Assembly: GCA_030698575.1 (NCBI GenBank)
Contig: JAUYMQ010000619.1
Coordinates: forward strand, 1-7,990
From: Deltaproteobacteria bacterium
Lineage (GTDB): Bacteria; JAUYMQ01
DNA length: 7,990 nt
Direction: 5' to 3'
Part shown: piece by piece, positions 2,369 to 6,694 of the stretch
How the letters are laid out: every line of letters starts with the position of its first letter
How positions within the stretch are numbered: the first letter of the stretch is position 1
Notes under the pieces: generated by a model
Told to the model about the DNA's origin: nothing
Seen by the model: only the letters and a program-made list of their open reading frames with translations
Database searches by the model: none
Position numbers and translations under genes: made by a program

Positions 2369-3232
2369 TCAGGTTCTCGGGCGGCTCACCTTGATCGATT
2401 CGTAGAGCGCCGCGCCGAGGATGATCGCACCGCCGCCCAGCGTGCGGAGTGAGGGGTACTCCCCGAGCAGCAACGCCGCAAGGGCGATGCCGTAGGCCGG
2501 CTGAAGGCTCTGCACGATGCCGAGGGTCTTCGCCTTCAGGTGGCGCAGGCTGTCAAGCAGCAACGAATGCGGGAAGGCGGTGAACAGCAGTCCGAGAGCG
2601 ACGAGCTGGAGCGCCCACGGCGCCGCCTGCCCGCCAAAGCCCCTCGGCATGACAGGCAGGAGCAGCAGCGCAGCCACCGTGACCTGAAAGAAAAGCGTCA
2701 CGGCGCTGTCAGACCCGCTCAGGTACTTCTTCTGAAAGATATTGCGAAGCGAGTAGAGCAGGGCGGAGCAGACGCCAAGGGCCACCCCGTGTGTTGCGCT
2801 GCTCTCGAGAGAGAGCCCCGGCACCATCAGGAGAACTCCCGCCAGCACCGCCAGCGCGGTCACGACGTCGGCCGGATCAATACGCGCGCGGTTGAAGGCG
2901 GGCTCGAGCAGGACCGTGATCACGGGGAAGGTGAAGAGCGAGACGATCCCGATGGCCACGTTCGAGATCTGCACGGCGTGGAAATAAAGAATCCAGTGGG
3001 CGCCGAGCAGCGCTCCGAGGAGCACGACCATCAGGTAGGCGCGCCGGTTCTCGAGTCGGAACGAGCGGCGGCGGGCGAGCAGCATCACGACGAGGGCGAG
3101 GGCCGCCACCGCCGATCGCCAGAAGATGATCTGTTGGGGGGGCAGGTTGACGAGCTTCGGAAACAGCGCGGTGAACCCCAGAAGGAGCGTCGCCCCGTTG
3201 ATCTCCAGGAGCCCTTTCGCGGCGCGCTGCAT
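2369..3232 (-). CDS. EamA/DMT-superfamily transporter with ten membrane helices
   Basis: The product, 287 residues from ATG 3232, is an inner-membrane protein with ten predicted hydrophobic helices arranged as two five-helix EamA repeats. The first repeat runs from LLEINGATLLLGFTALFP to LAVLAGVLLMVPGL, the second from GVALGVCSALLYSLRNIF to GGGAIILGAALYESIKV. A conserved-type SLQPAYGIALAALLLGE stretch precedes the last helix, as in many EamA proteins. Members export or import small metabolites such as amino acids, nucleobases or sugars; the substrate here is unknown. The start is uncertain: TTG at 3241 would add three residues and lies 7 nt from AGGA of the upstream AGGAAGGGG (complement of 3244-3252), while ATG 3232 is 11 nt from it. 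It is the first gene of the unit with the LOG and DUF1330 genes. I found no convincing promoter in the 200 bp upstream. Confidence 0.9.
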   Translation of the reverse strand: MQRAAKGLLEINGATLLLGFTALFPKLVNLPPQQIIFWRSAVAALALVVMLLARRRSFRLENRRAYLMVVLLGALLGAHWILYFHAVQISNVAIGIVSLFTFPVITVLLEPAFNRARIDPADVVTALAVLAGVLLMVPGLSLESSATHGVALGVCSALLYSLRNIFQKKYLSGSDSAVTLFFQVTVAALLLLPVMPRGFGGQAAPWALQLVALGLLFTAFPHSLLLDSLRHLKAKTLGIVQSLQPAYGIALAALLLGEYPSLRTLGGGAIILGAALYESIKVSRPRT

Positions 3233-3369
3233 GCCCGGCAATTCCCCTTCCTGCCCCGCCCGGCCGCCCTCGGAGGACGTTAGCGGGAACCTGACAGCCT
3301 GAAAATACCGCCCCCGCCGAAACCTTCCTCCGTTTCGCGGTCCGGAAGCCGAGGAGGGGGCCCGACTTC

Positions 3370-3452: not shown

Positions 3453-3465
3453 AATCAGATACTTA
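3453..3465 (+). promoter_or_regulatory. IHF binding-site match
   Basis: AATCAGATACTTA fits the IHF consensus WATCARNNNNTTR at every fixed position and lies in the only AT-rich patch of the region. It is centred about 70 bp upstream of the predicted sigma-54 transcription start, between possible activator sites and the promoter, which is the usual place for IHF to bend DNA at such promoters. The match alone would occur by chance fairly often; the position makes it credible. Confidence 0.5.
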
Positions 3466-3503
3466 GAGCTTTTTACGCGTTCTTTCACGCCATCCCGGCG
3501 CAC

Positions 3504-3519
3504 TGGCACGCCCCTTGCT
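3504..3519 (+). promoter_or_regulatory. Sigma-54 (RpoN) -24/-12 promoter
   Basis: TGGCACG (3504-3510), four C, then TTGCT (3515-3519) is an essentially perfect match to the sigma-54 consensus TGGCACG-N4-TTGCW, with the required 10 bp between the GG and GC pairs. Transcription should start near 3530 on the plus strand. The next protein gene begins about 430 bp further on, behind a strong terminator, so the direct product appears to be a non-coding RNA. Activation should need an enhancer-binding ATPase that is not encoded in the window. Confidence 0.75.
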
Positions 3520-3807
3520 TTATCCATCGGTGTGGAGCGCTTGGACCCGCCGGCCCTGCCGGGCCCCGGCGTACGGGACACCGGATCCCGTCAAGTCGCG
3601 AGGCGGGCGCCCGCACAGACCTCGATAATGCCTCCGGTGGGAACGTCGGAGTGAGGCAGAGGCGAGGTCGGGCGTTCAGGGGGCGTGCAAAACGCGGTGA
3701 GCATGCCCTCCGGGTCCTGCCTCTTCGAACGAATTGATGAAACCCTGTGTTTGCAAAGGTCAAATCGGCGCCGAGGAGCGGCACCGGAAAATTTGCCGAC
3801 GGCCCAA

Positions 3808-3817
3808 CCCCCCCCCC
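3808..3817 (+). repeat. Homopolymer run of ten C
   Basis: Ten consecutive C lie inside the candidate structured RNA, in a single-stranded-looking stretch between the hairpins. Such a tract can slip during replication and is also a common place for sequencing or assembly errors. Confidence 0.9.
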
Positions 3818-3911
3818 AAAGACCCCTCGGGTCCGACGGCACTGCCGGTTCTCTCGATAGAGAGATACCGGAATCGAGAGCCAGAGGAACGGCGGCCTCT
3901 GACCTCGAAGG

Positions 3912-3945
3912 CAAGCGGGGCTCTCACGAGCCCCGCTTGTATTTT
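3912..3945 (+). terminator. Strong intrinsic terminator
   Basis: A perfect 12-bp stem pairs 3912-3923 (CAAGCGGGGCTC) with 3928-3939 around the tetraloop TCAC and is followed by TATTTTAT. The T-rich side is only on the plus strand, so it ends transcripts coming from the left, that is from the sigma-54 promoter. The ATG of the TonB-family gene follows 19 bp after the stem. Confidence 0.85.
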
Positions 3946-3950
3946 ATACT
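3945..3950 (+). promoter_or_regulatory. Possible -10 element for a leaderless TonB-family mRNA
   Basis: TATACT at 3945-3950 is one base from the sigma-70 -10 consensus, and ATG 3959 lies 8 nt after it, so transcription could start at or next to the A of the start codon. No -35 hexamer is visible at 16-18 bp spacing, because that position falls inside the terminator stem. The proposal is therefore weak, but it would explain the absence of a Shine-Dalgarno sequence. Confidence 0.25.
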
Positions 3951-5221: not shown

Positions 5222-6694
5222 CTACTCGGGAAGCCAGCGAAGGATGGGCTTGCGCGCGGCCGTGACTTCGTCGAGGCGCGCCACGGGCGTGGTGAAGGGC
5301 GCCCCGGTGACCAGCTCGGGCCAGTCCGCAGCCTCGGCGGCGATGGCGCGCATGCTGTCGGCGAAGGCGTCGAGCGTCTCGAGGCTCTCGCTCTCGGTCG
5401 GCTCGATCATGAGGGCCCCCGGCACGACGAGGGGGAAGTAGATGGTGGGCGGGTGGTAGCCGTAGTCCATGAGGCGTTTTGCGATATCGAGCGTTTTCAC
5501 TCCGTGGGCGTTCTGCTTCCGGTCCGTCAGGATGCACTCGTGCATGACAGGGCCGGGATAGGGTGCGTGGTAAACGTCGCGGAGCTTTGCGAGCAGGTAG
5601 TTGGCGTTCAGCACCGCGTGCCGGCTCGAATCCGCGAGCCCCTCACCGCCGAGCGCCAGCGCAAAGGCGTAAGCGCGGATGTGCATTCCCACGTGGCCAT
5701 TGAAGCTCTTCACCTTGCCGATCGACTCGGGAAGCTCCTCGATCACGTAGGCGCCCTCGCGGTGATTTACGATGGGCGTGGGGAGATACCGGACGAGCGG
5801 CTCGGCGACGCCGACCGGCCCGGAGCCCGGGCCGCCGCCGCCGTGCGGGGTGGAGAAGGTCTTGTGCAGGTTGAAGTGCATCACGTCCACGCCCCTGTGG
5901 CCCGGCTTGGCCACTCCCATGAGCGCGTTCAGATTGGCGCCGTCGAAATAAACCAGCCCACCCTTCGCGTGCACGATCTCCGCGATCTCGACGATGTGCT
6001 TCTCGAAGAGCCCGCAGGTGTTCGGGTTCGTGAGCATCAGCGCGGCGACTTCCTCGTCCATGTGCGCCGCCACCTCGCGCGGTTCGAGCAGCCCCGTCGG
6101 GCCCGTCTTCATGCTCACGACCTCGTAGTCGCATAGCGTGCAGGAAGCCGGGTTGGTCCCGTGGGCCGTGTCGGGGATGAGCACCTTCTTGCGCGGATTG
6201 CCCTTCGCTTTCTGGTAAGCGCGCACCATGAGCATGCCCGTCAGCTCGCCCTGCGCGCCGGCCGCCGGCTGGAGCGTCACCCGCGCCATGCCGCTCACCT
6301 CGCAGAGGATCTGCTCGAGACGGTACATGAGCTCGAGCAGCCCCTGCGAGATCTCCACGGGCTGCAACGGGTGCGAACGCGCGAACTCCGGCAGGCGGGC
6401 GGCCCACTCGTTCAGCTTCGGGTTGTATTTCATCGTGCAGGAGCCGAGCGGGTACATGCCGACGTCGACGCCGTAGTTCTGGCGCGACAGGCGCGTGTAG
6501 TGCCGGACGACATCGATCTCCGAGATCTCGGGGAACCCCTCGACGGCCTCGCGCGTGCTTTCCTTGCCGTAGAGCGCGGCCGCGTCGGCCGCCGGCACGT
6601 CGGCAGGCGGAAGCGAGTAACCCCGCCGCCCCGGCGAGCCCTTCTCGAAAAGGAGCGGCTCGAGGGTCTGCTTTGCCCGTGGGTCGCGGTTCAT
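5222..6694 (-). CDS. gcvPB: Glycine dehydrogenase (decarboxylating) subunit 2, PLP-binding
   Basis: The product has 490 residues, the usual length for subunit 2 of the two-subunit P-protein of the glycine cleavage system. With subunit 1 it decarboxylates glycine on pyridoxal phosphate and passes the aminomethyl group to the lipoyl arm of GcvH in the cytosol. The PLP lysine is Lys278 in the signature NLHKTFSTPHGGGGPGSGP (275-293). Other family blocks are MYPLGSCTMKYNP (80-92), EISQGLLELMYRLE (114-127), QPAAGAQGELTGM (142-154), DTAHGTNPAS (175-184), LTNPNTCGLFE (221-231) and DGANLNALMG (251-260). ATG 6694 overlaps the stop codon of gcvPA by 4 bp (ATGA), so the two subunits are translationally coupled; AGGGGG lies 8 nt upstream. 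All visible motifs are intact. The gene ends convergently with the TonB-family gene, 42 bp apart. Confidence 0.97.
   Translation of the reverse strand: MNRDPRAKQTLEPLLFEKGSPGRRGYSLPPADVPAADAAALYGKESTREAVEGFPEISEIDVVRHYTRLSRQNYGVDVGMYPLGSCTMKYNPKLNEWAARLPEFARSHPLQPVEISQGLLELMYRLEQILCEVSGMARVTLQPAAGAQGELTGMLMVRAYQKAKGNPRKKVLIPDTAHGTNPASCTLCDYEVVSMKTGPTGLLEPREVAAHMDEEVAALMLTNPNTCGLFEKHIVEIAEIVHAKGGLVYFDGANLNALMGVAKPGHRGVDVMHFNLHKTFSTPHGGGGPGSGPVGVAEPLVRYLPTPIVNHREGAYVIEELPESIGKVKSFNGHVGMHIRAYAFALALGGEGLADSSRHAVLNANYLLAKLRDVYHAPYPGPVMHECILTDRKQNAHGVKTLDIAKRLMDYGYHPPTIYFPLVVPGALMIEPTESESLETLDAFADSMRAIAAEAADWPELVTGAPFTTPVARLDEVTAARKPILRWLPE

Follow-up and report, generated by a model that had tools for sequence, protein, structure and literature searches.

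A probable sigma-54 transcription unit with a probable non-coding product ahead of a TonB-domain gene in a phylum-level orphan bacterium

What is made from a sigma-54 promoter that is followed, a few hundred nucleotides on, by an intrinsic terminator and, in between, by nothing that reads as a gene? This question is raised by the stretch of DNA analyzed here, an entire contig (C80) of 7,990 nt, referred to below as the window, from a 4.13-Mb deltaproteobacterial genome assembly (653 contigs, 91.6% complete). The host is a phylum-level orphan, as none of the other genomes searched belongs to its phylum. A preliminary description of the locus had proposed a self-contained sigma-54 transcription unit producing a structured RNA of no known family. 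We find that the sequence points to a probable sigma-54 transcription unit whose product is probably non-coding, and that two similar units elsewhere in the genome strengthen this part of the proposal; the structural part fares less well.

Promoter, terminator and reading frames

The unit lies between an EamA transporter gene and a TonB-domain gene, and its features are as follows.

2369-3241, minus strand: EamA transporter gene, the upstream flank of the sigma-54 unit
3453-3465, plus strand: IHF site AATCAGATACTTA, exact, 51 bases upstream of the -24 element
3504-3518, plus strand: sigma-54 -24/-12 promoter TGGCACGCCCCTTGC, exact match
3530-3944, plus strand: predicted non-coding transcript of about 415 nt, deduced from promoter and terminator, with no coding ORF
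3618-3669, plus strand: hairpin, long and imperfect, capped by a GGAA (GNRA-type) loop, predicted fold
3806-3828, plus strand: unpaired C-rich loop AACCCCCCCCCCAAAGACCCCTC, candidate target-pairing site, mean unpaired probability 0.95
3845-3871, plus strand: hairpin CCGGTTCTCTCGATAGAGAGATACCGG, predicted fold
3911-3940 (3911-3950 with tail), plus strand: intrinsic terminator with a 13-pair stem, a loop of 4 and a T-rich tail
3974 (GTG) or 3959 (ATG) to 5179, plus strand: gene with a TonB C-terminal domain (PF03544, 1.3e-8), possibly also transcribed from the sigma-54 promoter by read-through

The sigma-54 match TGGCACGCCCCTTGCT at 3504-3519 has zero mismatches and is the sole one in the window; with the following T included, 0.01 such elements are expected by chance in shuffles. 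The element, earlier called near-perfect, is therefore perfect. The IHF consensus WATCARNNNNTTR likewise has a single exact match in the window (0.04 expected), upstream of the promoter as had been claimed. The site falls in locally AT-rich DNA: counted back from the -24 element, the interval between 80 and 15 bases is 60% AT, compared with 26-54% in the same interval at the other 16 exact sigma-54 sites of the genome. At the far end, the terminator has the form GCAAGCGGGGCTC-TCAC-GAGCCCCGCTTGT followed by the tail ATTTTATACT; its stem, previously given as a perfect 12 bp, comprises 12 Watson-Crick pairs and one terminal G-U pair and forms with a probability near 1 in the predicted fold. The limits of the predicted transcript were set by placing its start about 12 nt past the -12 element and its end after the terminator.

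Between these signals the plus strand has ORFs of 40-72 aa, plus one of 172 aa that extends past the terminator. Promoter-to-terminator ORFs have negative codon-usage scores when the window's own genes serve as the reference, a score that is imperfect in that an apparently genuine exported protein at another locus (L018) also scored low. None of the five longest ORFs tested between promoter and terminator has a Pfam match, and no well-placed ribosome-binding site was seen by eye for these ORFs, in agreement with the earlier statement that no credible reading frame is present. Promoter, IHF site and terminator, as well as the missing ORF, are beyond chance.

Elsewhere in the window, two small cytochrome-like genes, DUF1924 and a DHC dihaem cytochrome c, lie in tandem at 236-1244, and the fragment 5′ of them ends in an acidic DDDDDDDD tail.

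Folding of the transcript and searches for relatives

The predicted fold of 3530-3950 has a z of -4.3, which is mainly owed to the terminator. Without the terminator z falls to -1.2, no more stable than shuffles; for comparison, coding segments of the window range from -2.7 to +2.2, and the reverse strand (-1.65) lies inside that range. The six hairpins of the preliminary description are thus present in the predicted fold but collectively do not exceed chance, and because the z of -4.3 comes mainly from the terminator, the many hairpins are no evidence for a structured RNA. The claim of a structured RNA finds no support in an inner structure that is no stronger than chance. The C-rich loop spans 23 nt and includes ten consecutive C, the window's sole C run of 8 or more.

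Rfam 15 returned no family at gathering score for the window RNA, and permissive thresholds gave chance matches only, which bears out the view that no known RNA family is represented; nor is a tRNA or tmRNA present. A DNA search of 98 genomes across the domain, none of which shares the host's phylum, gave no usable homologue of the unit, and a DNA search of plasmids and phages gave none either. The sole DNA match among the 98 genomes (in G025) overlaps a GC-rich hairpin after another gene and was rejected as a chance match. At the protein level, a search with the TonB-domain protein against GTDB species genomes gave no match, and one with GcvPB gave 80 distant loci, the best at 62%. The lack of homologues reflects an absence of relatives and not an absence of conservation.

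The TonB-domain gene is convergent in the window with gcvPB (glycine dehydrogenase subunit 2; 5222-6694), and this convergent pair recurs in distant genomes (L022, L030, L035 and L121). The recurrence may mean that the neighbourhood is old, although no functional link is obvious.

Sigma-54 promoters and other ORF-less units in the genome

Genome-wide work rested on pattern searches and fetched stretches. The exact sigma-54 pattern, TGGCACGN4TTGC, occurs at 17 sites in the genome, compared with 2 for the reversed pattern that served as control; with one mismatch allowed the counts are 109 and 64. The genes after exact sites include a type IV pilin (L008), an ammonium-transporter-like gene (L007), a PilM-like gene (L009) and response regulators (L017 and L020), all named from sequence and not by family search. 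Given the excess over the control and the expected kinds of genes among those that follow, the exact -24/-12 pattern marks real promoters in this genome. The genome also encodes rpoN, about 20 full or partial enhancer-binding activator domains and five HU/IHF-family proteins. Neither Hfq (PF17209) nor CsrA was detected in the genome, where at 91.6% completeness either could be missed.

Three of the 17 exact sites lead into a stretch with no positively scoring ORF that ends in a strong terminator: the window site (L005), C304:6615 (L010) and C403:581 (L012). The terminators end about 195-415 nt downstream of the site, and the ORF-less stretches of L010 and L012 are about 210 and 265 nt long. 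A terminator was counted as strong if it had 12 or more pairs, 9 or more of them G-C, and 4 or more T in 9. By this measure such terminators are uncommon: about 266 strand-kb of sampled DNA from the same genome hold seven, including the three behind these sites. The expected number of sites with no scored ORF and a strong terminator within 450 nt is about 0.1-0.2, where three were observed. The chance of finding at least three strong terminators behind 17 sites is about 0.0002-0.001, a guide figure, as the background sample was drawn around sigma-54-like sites and not from random genome and the terminator definition was set after the three had been seen.

L010 is flanked on one side by the start of a minus-strand Maf gene and on the other by the end of a zinc-ribbon gene that converges on it, and the next in-frame start with a visible ribosome-binding site after L012 lies about 260 nt beyond its terminator; on account of these settings both look like stand-alone RNAs. 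The three units have no sequence in common beyond chance except for one 12-mer, GGAGTGAGGCAG, which the window and L010 both contain (1% of shuffles) and whose pairing differs between the two predicted folds. With that single 12-mer between two of the units and no visible homology, the three are not shown to be one family.

Two further sites deserve mention. At L006 (G000:C116:4478, minus strand) no ORF downstream of an exact sigma-54 site scores positively, and the only terminator-like hairpin there is weak; this is possibly a fourth ORF-less unit; a run of ten C, rare in the sample, occurs on the same contig. At L167 (G000:C560:268-282, minus strand) a near-consensus site, TGGCACCGCTCTTGC, lies just downstream of a response regulator that carries an HD (HD-GYP-type) domain and leads into about 268 nt without a scored ORF, after which the contig ends.

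Candidate functions and known systems

With moderate confidence, we favour the reading that the unit makes a stand-alone, sigma-54-dependent, trans-acting small RNA. The locus has the features of that class: a -24/-12 promoter placed as expected relative to the predicted RNA, sigma-54 and activators encoded in the genome, no apparent protein product and a terminator of its own; the two other ORF-less units with strong terminators strengthen the stand-alone, non-coding reading. We propose that an enhancer-binding protein, together with DNA bending at the IHF site, would open the promoter, and that the resulting non-coding RNA of about 415 nt would end at the intrinsic terminator and act in trans, being fully on or off according to the activator's signal. 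In this genome, where Hfq and CsrA are not detectable, direct pairing is the most plausible mode of action, and by analogy the C-rich loop would be the likeliest pairing site, with the G-rich ribosome-binding regions of mRNAs as putative partners.

The main competitor takes the RNA to be a regulated 5′ leader of the TonB gene, transcribed from the sigma-54 start, with the terminator acting as an attenuator that is relieved by a ligand, a protein or an antisense RNA. What keeps this reading in contention is distance: the terminator is followed on the same strand by the TonB start after 33 nt (the likely GTG, preceded by AGAGGA) or 18 nt (the in-frame ATG), so that the unit is not securely self-contained. 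Moreover, a search of the window gave no sigma-70-type promoter that could serve TonB, and another contig of the same genome has a similar layout with very similar spacing:

271-852 of C487 (L168): leader in which a sigma-54-like site TGGCACGACACTAGC (one mismatch) is followed in turn by a c-di-GMP-I riboswitch, a terminator and an ORF

No c-di-GMP-I riboswitch besides the one in that leader (350-434; 60.6 bits) was detected in the genome, and the ORF encodes 114 aa, with GGAGGG before its ATG and no Pfam match. The C487 leader appears to be gated by two signals. By analogy, one signal might gate transcription in the window through sigma-54 and a second might gate TonB through the terminator and an undescribed aptamer that senses a ligand or a protein, a version that we regard as improbable. 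Unlike the C487 leader, the window RNA contains no Rfam riboswitch or recognized aptamer. Nor was an antiterminator found, as judged by duplex energies: upstream segments pair with either arm of the terminator no better than shuffles do. Behind the terminators of L010 and L012 there is no close same-strand gene, and where a TonB-domain gene adjoins gcvPB in three other genomes, the upstream stretch that was examined holds no sigma-54 site. On balance, the TonB leader is a serious candidate that we nonetheless hold to be unlikely.

The remaining explanations carry much less weight. ORFs do exist on the plus strand, and the transcript could be imagined as a short mRNA encoding a small protein or peptide, but the negative codon usage of these ORFs, the lack of Pfam matches in those tested and the lack of a well-placed ribosome-binding site, together with a 72-aa frame that runs through the terminator stem, make it quite improbable. 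A sponge that sequesters a protein, as CrcZ does with Hfq or CsrB/RsmZ with CsrA, would fit the size, the sigma-54 promoter and the IHF site, all of which are as in CrcZ (PMC8395346). However, neither Hfq nor CsrA turned up in the genome search, which makes such a sponge very improbable; GGA occurs 10 times compared with 8.4 in shuffles, so is not enriched, and the open loops do not consist of A-rich repeats. An RNA-binding protein other than these two could conceivably be the one sequestered. That the sequences merely resemble a promoter and a terminator and are unused is the least probable reading, as an exact promoter, an exact IHF site and a strong terminator are jointly very unlikely by chance.

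Small RNAs under sigma-54 couple a specific signal to post-transcriptional control, and the few characterized examples cited here come from pseudomonads and myxobacteria. If our favoured reading of a trans-acting small RNA is correct, three ORF-less units in a phylum-level orphan, in which neither Hfq nor CsrA was detected, would widen the known use of such RNAs and provide a concrete set whose action must rest on something besides these two proteins. The screen for a promoter plus a terminator can be applied to any genome.

Among the known systems, CrcZ of Pseudomonas aeruginosa, which needs both RpoN and IHF, is similar in having an RpoN promoter, an IHF input and an activator (CbrB in CrcZ), and in its intergenic location and length of 407 nt (PMC8395346), which removes the earlier objection that about 410 nt would be long for a trans-acting small RNA. 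CrcZ is, however, a decoy for Hfq, whereas the window's host has no detected Hfq, and the window RNA has no Rfam match and different neighbours. NrsZ of the same species is also an RpoN-dependent intergenic small RNA (PMC8395346), but it is about 226 nt long, is driven by NtrC, is encoded beside ntrC and acts on rhlA. Pxr of Myxococcus xanthus offers a parallel in its predicted sigma-54 promoter, its intergenic position and its host, which lacks hfq and still uses this small RNA (PMC5568312, PMC5684412). Pxr differs in being 108 nt long with three stem-loops and in adjoining its own sigma-54-dependent response regulator, of which no counterpart is visible in the 8-kb contig of the window. For the mode of action, the closest comparison is sX13 of Xanthomonas, whose C-rich loops act Hfq-independently on G-rich motifs in mRNAs (PMC3771888). 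This likeness is a mechanistic analogy only, as sX13 has three apical C-rich loops and the longer window RNA has one loop of 23 nt. Set beside these systems, and with nothing so far to indicate a new family of structured RNAs, the putative non-coding sigma-54 RNA described here looks like a fresh example of a kind known in other bacteria.
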